Shown piece by piece: positions 4,980 through 27,225 of a DNA stretch of 37,306 nt (position 1 is its first letter; each line of letters starts with the position of its first letter). The position numbers and the translations under genes are program-made. The notes under the pieces were generated by a model. The model saw only the letters and a program-made list of their open reading frames with translations. It ran no database searches and was not told where the DNA came from. Source of the stretch: an uncultured Acetobacteraceae bacterium. Its GTDB lineage: Bacteria > Pseudomonadota > Alphaproteobacteria > Acetobacterales > Acetobacteraceae. The stretch covers positions 1 through 37,306 of the forward strand of contig CAIRCM010000124.1 of NCBI GenBank assembly GCA_903877125.1, given 5' to 3'.

Positions 4980-5543
4980 CTACTTGCCCGGATCGATCCA
5001 ACCGAGGTTGCCGTCCGGGCGCCGGAAGATGACGTTGAACTGGCCCGAGGCGCTGTTGCGGAACATCAACACCGGCTGCGCCGCGAGGTCCATGCGCATC
5101 GCCGCTTCGGCGACCGTCAGAACGTTGATTTCCGTAATCGTTTCCGCGATCACCGCCGGATGGGTCTGGACTTCCTCGGCATGTTCCTCCTCCGATTGGA
5201 GGATGAATTGCCGAGCGGCCGCGGGCCGTTCGCGATTGGCCAGATCGCGGTGGTGCTCGTTGACCCGGCGGCGGTAACGGCGGAGACGTTTGGCAACATG
5301 TTCCGCCGCGAGATCGAAGGCGTTATTGGCTTCGGATGCCTCGCCTTCGCCGCGCAGTTGGATGCCGCGCCCGGCGTGCAGATTGATATCGCAGGTGAAG
5401 TTGCTTCGCAAACGGCTGAAGGTGACCTTCGCCTCTATCGCGTGCTCGAAATATTTACTGGCCATGAGGTCCAGGCTGGTGCCGACCCGCGTACGCAGGG
5501 CATCGGACAGTTCGACTTGTTTTCCGGATACCGTAATTTGCAT
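4980..5543 (-). CDS. hpf: Long-form ribosome hibernation promoting factor
   Basis: The product is 187 aa; the start is placed at MQITVSGKQVELSDAL with GGAGAGG upstream, not at the longer in-frame opening. Residues 1-100 form the S30AE/YfiA domain that binds the 30S decoding region. After an acidic/basic linker, residues about 130-187 (INVLTVAEAAMRMDL, then FRRPDGNLGWIDPG) are the dimerisation domain that joins two ribosomes into inactive 100S particles. Long HPF is the usual form in alphaproteobacteria. The location 46 bases downstream of rpoN is the conserved order, so it is probably read from the rpoN transcript as well as a possible own promoter. Confidence 0.95.
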   Translation of the reverse strand: MQITVSGKQVELSDALRTRVGTSLDLMASKYFEHAIEAKVTFSRLRSNFTCDINLHAGRGIQLRGEGEASEANNAFDLAAEHVAKRLRRYRRRVNEHHRDLANRERPAAARQFILQSEEEHAEEVQTHPAVIAETITEINVLTVAEAAMRMDLAAQPVLMFRNSASGQFNVIFRRPDGNLGWIDPGK

Positions 5544-5589
5544 AGCAACCTCTCCCCCGGTGAAAGGAGCGGTAACGGCGATACATGCG

Positions 5590-7092
5590 TCAGGCGTGCA
5601 GCGCCTTTTCCCGCCGGCGCTGCACCGAACTGGGGATGCGCAGCGCTTCCCGGTATTTGGCCACTGTTCGCCGGGCGATGTCCACCCCTTCTTTGCGCAG
5701 CAGGGTGACCAAAGTATCGTCCGACACAATGTCGTTCGGCAGCTCCGCATCGATCAGCGCGCGAATGCGGTGGCGCACCGCTTCGGCGCTGTGGCTCTCC
5801 CCCCCGGTGGACGAGTGAATCGCGGCGGTAAAGAAATATTTCAACTCGTACAGCCCGCGCGGCGTCGCAATATATTTATTCGCGGTAACCCGGCTGACGG
5901 TGCTTTCATGCAGCTCGACCGCCGCGGCGATATCGCGCAGGATCAGCGGCCGCAGATGCGCCACACCGTAGCGCAGGAACCCGTCCTGCTGGCGCACGAT
6001 CTCCGCCGCGACCTTGATGATCGTCTGCGCCCGCTGCTGCAGCGACCGCACCAACCAGTTGGCACTCGCCAACCGCTCGGACAAGAACACCCGCTCGTCC
6101 TTTTTCGCATGCGGCGCGATGCGGGCATAAAAGCGCTCGTTGACCAGAACCCGCGGCATGGTGTCGGGATTGAGCTCGATGGTCCAGGAATCGTCCGGAT
6201 TGTGCCGCATCAGCAGATCGGGCACGACCGGCGGCGCCGGGACGCTGTCGTAGGTCGCGCCAGGTTTCGGGTCGAGGGCGCGGATTTCCCCGATCATCTC
6301 GGTCAGATCTTCGGCATCGACGCCGCAGATCGCCATCAGCTTGCGGTTTTCGCGCTGCGCCAGCAACGGCAGATTGGCCAGCAGCGCCTGCATCGCCGGA
6401 TCCAGCCGGTTTTTCTCCCGCAACTGGGCCGCCAGACATTCGGCCAGATCGCGCGCGAACAGACCGACCGGGTCGAAGGTCATCATGCGGTGGCGAACAT
6501 CCTCCACCCGATCCAGCGGCAGGTTCATCGCCGCGGCGATATCGGCCGGTGTGGCCGTGAGGCGGCCAGCGGGGCAGAGCAGGGCGATCAGATGCGCCCC
6601 CACCATCCGATCGACCGGGTCGTTGAAGCTCAGCCGCAACTGCTCACCCAGATACTCCCGCAGCGGCATCCGCGCATCCGCGAGGTCGTCGATCCCGCGA
6701 TCGTCGCTGTCGAAATTGTGGCTGCCACCGCTGCCGCTCATGCTGCCCATGGTCGGCCCGCCGTCGCTCACGCCGCCGGCGTCGTAATTTTCACTGTAAT
6801 CGGTATCCAGCGGCGCCGCCCCGTCCGCCGGCAGGGTGTCAGCACTGACCGAGGTCGCGGTATCGGTGGTGGCTTCGTTCCGCGGCACCGTTTGATCGAG
6901 CGCGGCGCGTTCCAGGGCCGGATTGTCGGTGGATTCGTCGCGCTCCAGCAGCGGGTTCCGCTCCAGCTCCGCCTCCACGAAGGTGGCGGCTTCCAGATTG
7001 TTGAATTGCAGGAGTTGGATGGCCTGACGCAGCTGGGGCGTCATAACCAGCGTTTGGCTTTGCCGAAGATCGAGACGAGGAATAAGCGCCAT
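5590..7092 (-). CDS. rpoN: RNA polymerase sigma-54 factor
   Basis: The product is 500 aa, the normal length. Region I is the Gln/Leu-rich start LDLRQSQTLVMTPQLRQAIQ, which receives the AAA+ activator. Residues about 50-130 are the acidic, variable region II. The core-binding and HTH regions follow, and the diagnostic RpoN box (RRTVAKYREALRIPSS) is at about 474-489. The protein directs polymerase to -24/-12 promoters that need an enhancer-binding ATPase; target genes are not evident in this window. Upstream, 94 bases separate it from lptB, with a good sigma-70-like promoter (see separate entry). hpf follows. Confidence 0.97.
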   Translation of the reverse strand: MALIPRLDLRQSQTLVMTPQLRQAIQLLQFNNLEAATFVEAELERNPLLERDESTDNPALERAALDQTVPRNEATTDTATSVSADTLPADGAAPLDTDYSENYDAGGVSDGGPTMGSMSGSGGSHNFDSDDRGIDDLADARMPLREYLGEQLRLSFNDPVDRMVGAHLIALLCPAGRLTATPADIAAAMNLPLDRVEDVRHRMMTFDPVGLFARDLAECLAAQLREKNRLDPAMQALLANLPLLAQRENRKLMAICGVDAEDLTEMIGEIRALDPKPGATYDSVPAPPVVPDLLMRHNPDDSWTIELNPDTMPRVLVNERFYARIAPHAKKDERVFLSERLASANWLVRSLQQRAQTIIKVAAEIVRQQDGFLRYGVAHLRPLILRDIAAAVELHESTVSRVTANKYIATPRGLYELKYFFTAAIHSSTGGESHSAEAVRHRIRALIDAELPNDIVSDDTLVTLLRKEGVDIARRTVAKYREALRIPSSVQRRREKALHA

Positions 7093-7186: not shown

Positions 7187-7963
7187 TTACAGGGAAAACC
7201 GTTCCCCCAGGTAGACCCGCCGTACGTCCTCGTTCGCCACGACCTCATCGGGTGTGCCTTCCATCAAAACCTGCCCATCGTGCATGATGTAGGCACGGTC
7301 GATGATTTCCAGCGTTTCCCGCACATTGTGGTCGGTGATCAACACGCCGATACCGCGATTCTTCAAGTGCCCGACGAGGTCGCGGATTTCGCCGACCGCG
7401 ATCGGGTCGATGCCGGCCAACGGCTCGTCCAGCAGGATATAGGACGGCTGGCTGGCCAGGGCCCGAGCGATTTCGACACGCCGGCGCTCCCCGCCCGACA
7501 GCGCCAGCGAGGGGGTACGGCGTAGATGGCCGACGCCGAATTCCGCCAGCAGTTCGTCCAGCATCGACGCCCGGGTCGCCGCGTCGGGTTCCACCACTTG
7601 CAGCACAGCCATGATGTTCTGCTCGACCGTCAGGCCGCGGAACACGCTGGCTTCCTGCGGGAGGTAACCGATGCCCAGACGGGCGCGACGATACATCGGC
7701 AGGGTGGTGATGTCCGCGCCATCCAGGGTGATGCCGCCCGTATCGGGGCGCACCAAGCCGACGATCATGTAGAATGTGGTGGTCGTTCCCGCGCCATTCG
7801 GCCCCAGCAGACCCACCGCCTCCCCCCGGCGCAGGCCGACCGAGACATTCTTGACGACGGCCCGCTTCTTATACGTCTTCCCAACCCCCGTGGCGATCAG
7901 CCCGCCAGTGCTCAGCGGTACGCGTGTCGGCGGCGGGAAGGGAATGTCCAGGGTATCGCTCAT
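7187..7963 (-). CDS. lptB: LPS export ABC transporter ATPase LptB, with Thr in place of the Walker A Lys
   Basis: The product is 258 aa and clearly LptB: GYLPQEASVFRGLTVEQN (Q-loop Q103), LSGGERRRVEIARAL signature (155-169), Walker B YILLDEPLAGIDP (175-187) and switch H212. LptB2 powers LptFG to extract lipopolysaccharide from the inner membrane. The striking feature is the P-loop: residues 54-61 read GPNGAGTT, whereas the family has GPNGAGKT. The codon at 7784-7786 is ACG where AAG is expected, a single transversion. Loss of this Lys normally abolishes ATP hydrolysis, so this is either a sequence error, a defective allele, or a variant compensated by another lptB copy. The gene starts inside the lptA stop (ATGA, 7960-7963). 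Everything else in the protein looks intact. Confidence 0.95.
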   Translation of the reverse strand: MSDTLDIPFPPPTRVPLSTGGLIATGVGKTYKKRAVVKNVSVGLRRGEAVGLLGPNGAGTTTTFYMIVGLVRPDTGGITLDGADITTLPMYRRARLGIGYLPQEASVFRGLTVEQNIMAVLQVVEPDAATRASMLDELLAEFGVGHLRRTPSLALSGGERRRVEIARALASQPSYILLDEPLAGIDPIAVGEIRDLVGHLKNRGIGVLITDHNVRETLEIIDRAYIMHDGQVLMEGTPDEVVANEDVRRVYLGERFSL

Positions 7964-8973
7964 GGTTTGTGGGGCGCGGCGGGCGGGGGATAGACGCCGG
8001 GCGGGGCCGACGGTACCGGCGGATTGGACTGGTCGTTGGGCAGCACAAGTCCGTGCACCCGGCCGCTGGGGTTGGACACCAGCGTTGCCACCCCGGTTTT
8101 CATGTTCACCAGCGCTTCCGACCCGTTCAGCTGATTCTGGCCACGGGTGATGCGCACATGCCCCAGCAGCCGAGCGAGACCGGTTTCGGCGACGTAGACG
8201 CCGCGATCGCCGGTGACGGTGTCGGTCTGGGTGCGGATCGAGACATGGCCGAATGCCTCCATTCTCTGCAACTTGCCCGATGCGGTCAGCGGATCGTCCG
8301 GCTGGTTTGGCGCGCCATTCGGGGCGGATGCCGGCGTGGGTTTCGCCGGTGCCGGTTTCGGTCCGGCCGGCGCTTGCGTGTCGCTGGGCGTGGTGTAGGC
8401 GACCAGCGTATCCGCCGCGATGCGCCGCCCATCATTTGTCAACGCGATCGCATCGCCCCGGGCGACCGCCATGTGCTGCTGCGACCAATATTCCAGCGTG
8501 TCGCGCGCGGTCAGGATCTGCGACGGCGTGGTGAGTTTCATGTGGCTGCCGGTCATCACCAACACGGCCTGATCCATGTCGTAGACAGCCTTGTCGCCCA
8601 CCACCTGGTCTGTTTTGGACAGTATCCGCACATGGCCGAGCGCCTCGACCTTGTAGATTTCGCTGCCGCCGCCGTCCTGCGTGGTGGGATCGCCACCGGG
8701 TGCCGTGTTGGGCTGGCCGGCAGGTGCGGGTCCGGACGGTGTCGCACCAGCCTTCGGTCGGTACCAAGCCGTCAGCGTATCCGCCAGCACGGTCACATCG
8801 CCCCGCACCGCTCGGGCATCGCCGCGGGCGACAACCATTTTCTGTTCCTGCCGCCAGTCGATGCCATCGGTCGCGGTGATGTCGATCGGCCCGCCATGCG
8901 ACAGGTCGAGCTGCTGCGCGACGGCGGTCAACGGCAAAAGCGCCAAGCAGGCAGCAGCGAGAAGCGCTCTCAT
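7960..8973 (-). CDS. lptA: Periplasmic LPS-transport protein LptA, enlarged by internal duplication
   Basis: The product is 337 aa, nearly twice the enterobacterial length. It has a Sec signal peptide (residues 1-19, ending AVA before QQ). OstA/LptA beta-jellyroll segments occur at about 42-71 and 105-141, and again at 166-194 and 235-270, with corresponding motifs VARGDARAV/VARGDAIAL and VEALGHVRI/MEAFGHVSI. Each unit is interrupted by a Pro/Ala-rich linker (72-104 and 195-233). LptA forms the periplasmic bridge carrying LPS from LptC to LptD. The start is set at MRALLAAACL because it overlaps the lptC stop as ATGA and provides the signal peptide; the open frame extends further upstream but overlaps lptC. 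The C-terminal 30 residues are Pro-rich and probably disordered. Confidence 0.92.
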   Translation of the reverse strand: MRALLAAACLALLPLTAVAQQLDLSHGGPIDITATDGIDWRQEQKMVVARGDARAVRGDVTVLADTLTAWYRPKAGATPSGPAPAGQPNTAPGGDPTTQDGGGSEIYKVEALGHVRILSKTDQVVGDKAVYDMDQAVLVMTGSHMKLTTPSQILTARDTLEYWSQQHMAVARGDAIALTNDGRRIAADTLVAYTTPSDTQAPAGPKPAPAKPTPASAPNGAPNQPDDPLTASGKLQRMEAFGHVSIRTQTDTVTGDRGVYVAETGLARLLGHVRITRGQNQLNGSEALVNMKTGVATLVSNPSGRVHGLVLPNDQSNPPVPSAPPGVYPPPAAPHKP

Positions 8974-9635
8974 TTCGAAGCCGCGTTCATGATCAGATGG
9001 GTCTTGCCGGAGAACTGAATGGCCGTGCCCTTGTCCGTGATGGTGAACCCGCCGTCGGCATCCAGGACACCGAACGGCCCCTCGGCGTGCACGGGGTCGC
9101 CGCCGACCGCGCTGCCGCCCTTGACGTCCAGCGTCGCGCTCCCGGTGGTCAGCGTGGTGCCGTCGTCGCGGTACAGAACAACGTTCGACCAAAGGTCGAG
9201 CGTATTGGCCTTCTGGGCAAAGATACCGTGGTCGGCCTTCAGGTTGAGCCAAATCCCGTTGGCTTGCGTCAGATCGCCCTGCGGCTTGGTCAGTTCGATG
9301 CGATCGCTGTCCAGTTGCTTGGCGGTGTCGGTCGTCAGCGTGTAGGGCTCGCCCTTCTCGTTGACGCCATGATAACGCGCGTGCCGCAGTTGCGCGCCAT
9401 CGAGTTGGCCGCTCACATTGCCCAGCCGGGTCGGGATGAAGCCCTGCCGTTGCACCAGATCGGGCCACACCGCCACGGCGGTCAGCAGCGCGAGCGCGAG
9501 GAGCGGCAGCACATATTTTGTCGCCGTGATCAGCAGACGCCGGCGCGCCAGATCGCCTGCCTGGGCCGCGAAACGGTCTCTTGGCGTGTGCATGCCGTTG
9601 GTATGTCCCGCCATTTGCACCTGCCCGACCATCAT
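8970..9635 (-). CDS. lptC: LPS export protein LptC
   Basis: The product is 221 aa: a short cytoplasmic N-terminus (1-40), one membrane helix (about 41-57, YVLPLLALALLTAVAVW) and a periplasmic LptC/OstA jellyroll. LptC accepts LPS from LptBFG and hands it to LptA. The sequence is poorly conserved in the family, but the topology and position between kdsD and lptA settle the identity. Both ends overlap neighbours as ATGA. The start could be a few codons downstream (the second or third Met), since the first ATG is followed at once by another. Confidence 0.9.
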   Translation of the reverse strand: MMVGQVQMAGHTNGMHTPRDRFAAQAGDLARRRLLITATKYVLPLLALALLTAVAVWPDLVQRQGFIPTRLGNVSGQLDGAQLRHARYHGVNEKGEPYTLTTDTAKQLDSDRIELTKPQGDLTQANGIWLNLKADHGIFAQKANTLDLWSNVVLYRDDGTTLTTGSATLDVKGGSAVGGDPVHAEGPFGVLDADGGFTITDKGTAIQFSGKTHLIMNAASK

Positions 9636-10618
9636 ACCTGTCCGACCCGCAGCAGGTCGTGCACGTGAAGGATGCCTTCCGGCACGCCCTCCCGGTTCAC
9701 GACGAACAATGTGGTGACCCGTCGTTCGGGCGCGTTCATGGCCCGTAACGCCTCATCCGCGAGCGCGTCCGGCCCGATCGTCCGCGGGTCATGCGTCATG
9801 ATCTCGCCAACCCGGCGCGAAAGCAGGCCGGCATCCATCGACCGCCGCAGGTCGCCATCGGTCAGTATACCGATCAGCGCGCCATCGGGGCCGGTCACGC
9901 CAAGGCAGCCGAATCGCTTCTCGGTCATGGTCACGAGCGCGCGGTCCATCCCGGTGTCCGGTGTGGCCAACGGAACCGCATCGCCGGTGTGCATGACATC
10001 GCGCACCCGCCGCAGCCGCTGCCCCAACCGCCCGCCAGGATGAAACCGGCGGAAATCCTGTGCCGTGAAACCGCGCCGGGTCAGCAATGCGACGGCCAAC
10101 GCGTCGCCCAATGCCATCTGCATGGACGTCGATGTGGTGGGCGCGAGGCCCATGGGGCAGGCCTCCTCCGCCGGCGGCAGGATCAGCGCCTCGTTCGCGG
10201 CTTTCGCCAGCGCCGACCCGGCGCGGGCGGTGATCGCGACCAGCGGCAGGCCGAAACGGTGGCAGTGCGCGACGAGGTCGGCCAACTCCGCCGTTTCCCC
10301 CGAATTGGACAGCGCCAGCACCGCGTCGCCCGGCACGATCATGCCGAGGTCGCCGTGCGAAGCCTCGGCCGGATGGACGAACAGCGACGGGGCGCCGGTC
10401 GAAGCCAGGGTCGCGGCGATCTTGCGCGCGACGTGGCCGGATTTCCCCATGCCGGTCACAACGATCCGCCCGCTGGCCGAGCCCAGCAGGTCAAGCGCCC
10501 GGACGAAACTGTCGTCGAGCGCGCTCGCCAATGCCAGCAAACCCTCCGCCTCGGTCGTCAGCACCCGCCGCGCCACATCCCGATCGGACAAAGCCGCGCC
10601 CCCGGGGGCCTCGGTCAT
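9632..10618 (-). CDS. kdsD: Arabinose-5-phosphate isomerase (KpsF/GutQ/KdsD)
   Basis: The product is 328 aa starting at MTEAPGG; an upstream in-frame TTG would add 13 residues but has no better ribosome site. It has an N-terminal SIS domain (about 45-175) with TGMGKSGHVARKIAATLAST and the SNSGET loop, then two CBS domains (about 200-325) with VRDVMHTGDAVPLA and GEIMTHDPRTIGPD. It interconverts ribulose-5-phosphate and arabinose-5-phosphate, the first step to Kdo for the LPS inner core. It heads the ATGA-coupled set kdsD-lptC-lptA-lptB, so Kdo synthesis and LPS export are co-expressed. The upstream 157 bases before rnd hold no gene. Confidence 0.94.
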   Translation of the reverse strand: MTEAPGGAALSDRDVARRVLTTEAEGLLALASALDDSFVRALDLLGSASGRIVVTGMGKSGHVARKIAATLASTGAPSLFVHPAEASHGDLGMIVPGDAVLALSNSGETAELADLVAHCHRFGLPLVAITARAGSALAKAANEALILPPAEEACPMGLAPTTSTSMQMALGDALAVALLTRRGFTAQDFRRFHPGGRLGQRLRRVRDVMHTGDAVPLATPDTGMDRALVTMTEKRFGCLGVTGPDGALIGILTDGDLRRSMDAGLLSRRVGEIMTHDPRTIGPDALADEALRAMNAPERRVTTLFVVNREGVPEGILHVHDLLRVGQV

Positions 10619-10775
10619 TGGACGCTCGGCGAGGATGGTATCGTGGGGCAATGGCAATCCGTTGCGGTGTTCGTGACTTCTATGATCCCCCCCCGGCGAG
10701 GGGTCAACGCGTTACGCATATCGAAATGTTACACGAAACCGGGAGCACCCGGCGCGCATCAGTGCCCGGCCCGCA

Positions 10776-24500: not shown

Positions 24501-24508
<8 letters not shown>
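23798..24508 (-). CDS. livF: LivF-type ABC transporter ATPase
   Basis: The product is 236 aa, standard for LivF. The motifs are complete: Walker A GPNGAGKTTLFKTI, signature LSGGEQQMVAIGRGL, Walker B LLMLDEPSMGLAP and the H-loop region ILLVEQRV. It forms the ATPase dimer with the LivG domain of the upstream fusion. Its start codon overlaps the fusion stop by eight bases (ATGCTTGA). Confidence 0.95.
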
Positions 24509-26267
<1,759 letters not shown>

Positions 26268-26268
26268 G

Positions 26269-27225
26269 TCACGCGCGCTCCGCCGAGCGGCCAAACAGGC
26301 CTTGGGGGCGCAGCAGGACGATCAGCAGAAACACGATGAAGATCATCGCGTTCTGCAATTGCGGCGGCAGCACGAGGGCGGAAAACTGCTGCACGAACCC
26401 CACCGTCAGCCCGCCCCAGAAAGCCCCCATGATCGAGCCGATGCCACCCAGCACCACGCCGGAATACATGATGATGACGTAGTCGAAGCCGACGAATGGA
26501 CCGAACGACAGATAGGTGGCCATCAGACCGCCGGCGATCGCTGTGATGCCGCAGCCCATGCCGAACGCCATACGATAGTAATTATCAACATTGATGCCCA
26601 TGTAAGTCGCGGCCGTCGGGTTGTCCGCGGCAGCGCGCAGGGCCTTGCCGATGCGGGTGAACTCCATGACGAAATACAACGCCAACGCGGTCGCGATGGC
26701 CACGGCGCAGGCGATCAGTTTCGCCTTGTTCAGAAAGACCGTGGCATCGCCATAGCCCAGCCCGACTTCGATGGCGCTCGATGAAAGCGGGGTACGGACG
26801 GTGAAGGGGGTGGAGCCAAAAACGATCATCCCGCCGTTCTGCAAAATCAGGCTGATGCCGAGGGTGACGATCAACTGGCCGAAATGCCCGTCATCGATCG
26901 ATCCGGCGGTTTTCAATCCCGAAACGCGGGAGATCAGGAACTTATGCAGCAAGGCGCCCACGATGAACACGATCGGCCCCGCCAGGATCGCGCCGACGAA
27001 CGGACCGATATAGGGACCAAGGAAGGCCAGGATGCCGCCGCCGGTCACCAAATAAAGGCTGGCGAACATCCCGAGCATGAGTATCTCGCCCTGGGCGAAG
27101 TTGACGACCTTCATGATGCCGAAGATCAATCCCAGGCCGATGCACATCAGGCCGTAGATACAGCCGATCGTGATCCCCGCGGTGAGCGCGTTCGCCACAT
27201 TCTCGATCAGACTCTCGATGTCCAC
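26269..27225 (-). CDS. livH: LivH-type branched-chain substrate ABC permease
   Basis: The product is 318 aa with about eight membrane helices, starting at GTG after AGGAGG. The family segments ALTAGITIGCIYGLMCIGL, MKVVNFAQGEILMLGMF and GKALRAAADNPTAATYMGI are clear, and GIGSIMGAFWGG lies near the end. It pairs with the LivM half of the next gene to form the membrane channel. As the first gene of the operon, its upstream region (27226-27316, shared with the divergent aminotransferase) should hold the promoter; I see no strong consensus there. Confidence 0.94.
   Translation of the reverse strand: MDIESLIENVANALTAGITIGCIYGLMCIGLGLIFGIMKVVNFAQGEILMLGMFASLYLVTGGGILAFLGPYIGPFVGAILAGPIVFIVGALLHKFLISRVSGLKTAGSIDDGHFGQLIVTLGISLILQNGGMIVFGSTPFTVRTPLSSSAIEVGLGYGDATVFLNKAKLIACAVAIATALALYFVMEFTRIGKALRAAADNPTAATYMGINVDNYYRMAFGMGCGITAIAGGLMATYLSFGPFVGFDYVIIMYSGVVLGGIGSIMGAFWGGLTVGFVQQFSALVLPPQLQNAMIFIVFLLIVLLRPQGLFGRSAERA

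Follow-up and report, generated by a model that had tools for sequence, protein, structure and literature searches.

LptB, the ABC transporter ATPase of LPS export, functions as a dimer within LptB2FG (PMC5548808), and the ATPase-defective lptB(H195A) allele is lethal in E. coli (PMC5082905). In related proteins, loss of the Walker A lysine strongly reduces ATPase activity, as reported for the K487A substitution of CTS (PMC6642094) and for MsbA without this lysine (PMC8660845). Because LptB is dimeric in LptB2FG, replacement of its own Walker A lysine by threonine would affect both ATP sites. No Walker A lysine mutant of LptB, K42A included, was found in the literature searched, a partial set that included the available portions of PMC5548808, PMC12498426 and PMC5082905.

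Here we describe an assembled lptB gene in which a threonine codon takes the place of the Walker A lysine codon. The window, meaning the whole stretch of DNA that was analyzed (37,306 nucleotides), is the entire contig 124; this contig belongs to a draft assembly of 5.15 Mb from an uncultured Acetobacteraceae bacterium. The assembly consists of 231 contigs and is 97.94% complete and 2.85% contaminated.

The assembled lptB gene and its surroundings

The match of lptB to its family profile (Table 1) was full-length and exceeded the curated cut-off. We found that codon 60 (7784-7786, minus strand) is ACG and specifies Thr60, as the sequence-only reading had claimed; both the plus-strand letters, CGT, and the translation confirmed this. 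The 30 bases at 7766-7795 of the minus strand were recovered again by a pattern search of the window's genome. The translation around Thr60 is VGLLGPNGAGTTTTFYMIVGL, so that the P-loop reads GPNGAGTT rather than the usual GPNGAGKT, and the codon departs by a single base, A to C on the coding strand. When lptB was aligned with a structure chain, Thr60 fell on residue 42 of the LptB chain 6mjp_A, which is the K of GPNGAGK.

The other motifs had been described as intact, and all of them were found in the translation: YLPQE (Q-loop), the LSGGE signature, ILLDEP (Walker B) and ITDHN (switch His). The gene as assembled has these features of a functional ABC ATPase and lacks the Walker A lysine. Judged by its sequence, it is an LptB by descent, yet by motif it is no competent ATPase as written.

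Table 1. Genes of the lptB region with the profile matches that identify them. Cut-offs are those of each family.
Gene	Product or description	Position	Strand	Profile match
hpf	ribosome hibernation promoting factor	4980..5552	-	TIGR00741, 56.3 bits (cut-off 40.9), on the longer ORF 4980-5750
rpoN	sigma-54; downstream of lptB	5590..7092	-	NF004596, 702.9 bits (cut-off 499)
lptB	LPS export ABC transporter ATPase, 258 aa	7187..7963	-	TIGR04406, 366.3 bits (cut-off 240)
lptA-like	periplasmic bridge protein; directly upstream of lptB	7960..8973	-	TIGR03002
lptC-like		8970..9635	-	TIGR04409, E 8.3e-9, 35.2 bits (slightly under cut-off 38)
kdsD	KpsF/GutQ family sugar-phosphate isomerase	9632..10657	-	TIGR00393, 288.2 bits (cut-off 203.7)

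The gene had also been said to lie in its normal operon, and profile matches of its neighbors supported this. The kdsD, lptC-like and lptA-like genes are upstream of lptB, and rpoN and hpf are downstream, with the lptA and lptC matches falling below their family cut-offs; for the lptA-like gene, the longer ORF 7960-9468 matched TIGR03002 with an E value of 1.6e-10 and 41 bits, under the cut-off of 71.7. The starts of the lptA-like gene at 8973 and of hpf at 5552 are our choices. A general decay affecting lptB or its operon was ruled out, as the gene contains no stop or frame break and the lptB block carries 3 radical private changes, compared with 0-5 in 30 relatives.

Elsewhere in the genome, LpxC, LptD and two LptF_LptG matches were each above their cut-offs and without inner stops, so that LptF/LptG, LptD and lipid A synthesis, the partners expected of an LptB, are all represented. 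With these genes in place, an LptF/LptG pair among them, the cell would be expected to require LPS export, and selection should act on the exporter. The open genes led us to reject a loss of the LPS pathway. They also bear on the possibility that the Thr allele is real but an evolutionary dead end, private to the cells sampled, as might arise in a strain that was briefly without LPS export. A lone catalytic change without frame damage would fit a very recent event. However, the LpxC, LptD and LptF/LptG genes as well as the lptA-, lptC- and kdsD-like genes are present and open, and in E. coli an LptB with defective ATPase activity is lethal (PMC5082905). We consider a dead-end mutation of this kind quite unlikely.

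Two other features of the window were observed. Codon 26 of kdsD is Arg (CGG), as opposed to Leu in 23 of the 23 genus mates read; this second radical private change is a T to G on the coding strand and lies some 2.8 kb away from codon 60 of lptB. In addition, a branched-chain amino acid permease domain and an ABC ATPase domain are fused in one frame of 597 aa at 24501-26294, which adjoins a second ABC ATPase, a permease and a periplasmic binding protein.

Codon 60 in the genus, the order and the class

Lysine was found at codon 60 in each of the 30 genus mates whose lptB was readable, and the window's gene is 81.9-89.9% identical to theirs. Of the 32 mates, G004 and G006 (64% and 80% complete) yielded no lptB stretch and were left out. 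The codon was AAG in 21 mates and AAA in 9, and the claim that all functional LptB proteins have AAG here held for the amino acid but not for the codon. Lysine was also present in 109 of 109 other LptB loci, comprising 29 genus loci and 80 from wider contig records, two sets that share some records; Thr60 occurred in none of the 80 wider LptBs.

Pattern and protein searches were combined for 395 genomes of the order, and lysine was found in 386 of the 387 LptB genes read, the sole threonine being that of the window. The Lys pattern was matched by 378 genomes and the non-Lys pattern by one, the window's own; the latter pattern (NBN) specifies a second codon base other than A and misses codons with A there. 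The 16 genomes matching neither pattern were examined by protein search, which gave 8 LptB genes, all with Lys, and 8 genomes with no LptB at E <= 1e-60, which were left out of the 387. A scan of 385 genomes of the class, which counted the non-Lys pattern only and carries no Lys denominator, found this pattern in none but the window.

An inherited change would be expected to place Thr in sister genomes, and it was present in 0 of the 30 genus mates read. The genomes compared were one per species, and the other genus genomes belong to different species (70-78% DNA identity over near-whole-query matches, at most 83% over lptB alone). On these comparisons, departure from the Walker A lysine in LptB is not ordinary variation. 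The sequence-only reading had suggested that this lineage may tolerate Thr, and no relative read backs that option; lineage-wide tolerance was rejected, with no instance in the genus, in the order or in the class scan for the non-Lys pattern. It had also held that the lysine codon in related strains would reduce the case to an assembly error or a private mutation. At the genus level this was borne out, as the relatives read, all of other species, have Lys.

A second lptB had been raised as a further way out. A search of the window's genome assembly (97.94% complete) found none: the gene at 7187-7963 is the only LptB found in this assembly, and the best other ABC ATPase is only 36% identical to it. 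A working second LptB might be absent from the assembly while the gene at 7187-7963 is being lost. The assembly, in 231 contigs, does leave a small gap, the window's lptB is slightly fast, and the 8 order genomes of 395 in which LptB was missed at the threshold above indicate that assemblies may miss the gene. On the other hand, the closest remaining ABC ATPase has only the 36% identity given above, and each of the 378 Lys-pattern genomes gave one match, so that genomes of the order do not usually carry two such copies. We regard an unassembled second LptB as highly improbable.

Private changes in lptB and in the assembly

We then compared the window's genome with its relatives for private changes, taking each genome in turn and counting changes at sites invariant in all others. 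For seven genes around lptB the comparison covered 30 genus loci, and for five genes of an rpoB contig it covered 19; the block counts used matches of at least 50% identity, and the rpoB part comprised the five real genes only. The window's genome had 17 private changes among 2244 otherwise invariant sites. Of these, 9 (among 899 sites) lie in the lptB block, where the genome shares 7th place among 31, and 8 (among 1345 sites) lie in the rpoB operon, where it is 6th among 20. Among the changes counted in its RpoB part, none was radical. On these 12 genes an error-rich assembly was unsupported, and 2244 codons would be too few to rule out errors at a rate of around 1e-4 per base. The spectrum of change types was rejected as a signal of error, as A to C or T to G accounted for 2 of 4 radical single-base changes in the window's genome and 4 of 29 elsewhere, which was not significant (Fisher p = 0.14).

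The lptB gene itself has 5 private changes at genus-invariant sites (P35A, R38K, K60T, E122Q and I144V), the most of 31 genomes. This count admitted matches of any identity, and at one locus, L139, 29 of the 30 changes came from kdsD, with the lowest match 37% identical. When its divergence was set against that of other genes, lptB ranked 1st among 28 for rpoN, 3rd among 23 for rnd and 3rd among 22 for hpf. It departs from the genus majority at 11 positions between residues 21 and 258, and 8 of these departures occur in some of the 80 wider LptBs, the other three, K60T, E122Q and I144V, being absent from them; Gln at 122 is present in the distant LptB 6mjp_A. These figures suggest that lptB is slightly fast-evolving, and the private changes and divergence would likewise be compatible with a gene that is adapting or has recently been released.

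Another reading is that the Thr allele is real and fixed in the species, and that LptB works, perhaps slowly, with its ATP held by the remaining P-loop backbone and the other motifs. The intact frame, motifs and operon are consistent with this, the genus genomes compared are all of other species, and E122Q and I144V, both unseen in the 80 wider LptBs, could be companion changes. Nevertheless, Lys is kept by each of the 386 other LptB genes that were read in the order, loss of the Walker A lysine strongly cuts ATPase activity in related proteins (PMC6642094 and PMC8660845), and both ATP sites of the LptB dimer (PMC5548808) would be affected. We consider a fixed, working Thr unlikely. The more specific proposal, that a sole LptB extracts LPS without its Walker A lysine and with E122Q and I144V as possible companions, appears very unlikely. 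If LptB did work on Thr, an essential dimeric ABC motor could run although it lacks the lysine contact to the phosphates of ATP.

We favor a different explanation, to which we assign a probability of about three in four: Thr60 would stem either from a consensus error at one base or from a minority-read variant that entered the contig, and the base as assembled is probably wrong. We prefer this reading because Thr is unique and its expected effect is lethal, and not because of a demonstrated error rate. The lptB gene of the organism would then be an ordinary one, in its normal operon and carrying Lys, and the Lys-bearing LptB would hydrolyze ATP and so drive LptB2FG. On present comparisons, a flaw of the draft genome rather than new biology is the most likely origin of Thr60, a dead private allele being less probable than a consensus error or minor variant. 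The single wrong base proposed in the sequence-only reading fared accordingly: it is favored by the occurrence of Thr in one assembly only, whereas the assembly did not prove to be error-rich. Rare one-base flaws at catalytic codons would be expected across many draft genomes, and codon 60 of lptB was picked from a scan. A private single base at a catalytic codon of a draft genome should not be taken for biology until the reads have been checked.

Comparison with an inherited Walker A change and with LptB of LptB2FG

The window's genome contains another ABC ATPase with a changed Walker A lysine, encoded at G000:C216:2618-3463 on the minus strand. Its P-loop is GRNGVGRS, with Arg in place of Lys, and we refer to it as LivF/UrtE-like, its matches to the UrtE and LivF families being below their cut-offs. 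We searched 32 genus genomes, the window's included, and read 30 loci. Arg was present in 21 of the 21 LivF/UrtE-like orthologues read, own copy included, the others being 77-85% identical. Because Arg is common to all orthologues read, this change is fixed. The 9 further loci, which have Lys, are 46-50% identical to the LivF/UrtE-like ATPase and were taken as paralogues. The frame that adjoins the LivF/UrtE-like gene on the same contig (3331-4620, minus strand) has the usual GPNGAGKT. Separately, an ABC ATPase on another contig (G000:C79, about 67763-68452) has an odd P-loop, GGNACGKS.

The LivF/UrtE-like ATPase resembles lptB in being an ABC ATPase of the window's genome without the Walker A lysine. 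It differs in that its Arg is fixed across 21 orthologues, whereas the Thr of lptB is confined to one genome. The Arg serves as an example of how an inherited Walker A change looks; from these alignments, such a change is detectable in the genus where it exists, and the Thr of lptB behaves otherwise.

Compared with the LptB of LptB2FG (TIGR04406; PDB 6mjp, 6mgf and 4p32), the window's lptB is alike in its full-length profile match, its operon neighbors, and its Q-loop, LSGGE, Walker B and ITDHN motifs. It differs by the Thr at the Walker A lysine, residue 42 in the numbering of 6mjp_A.
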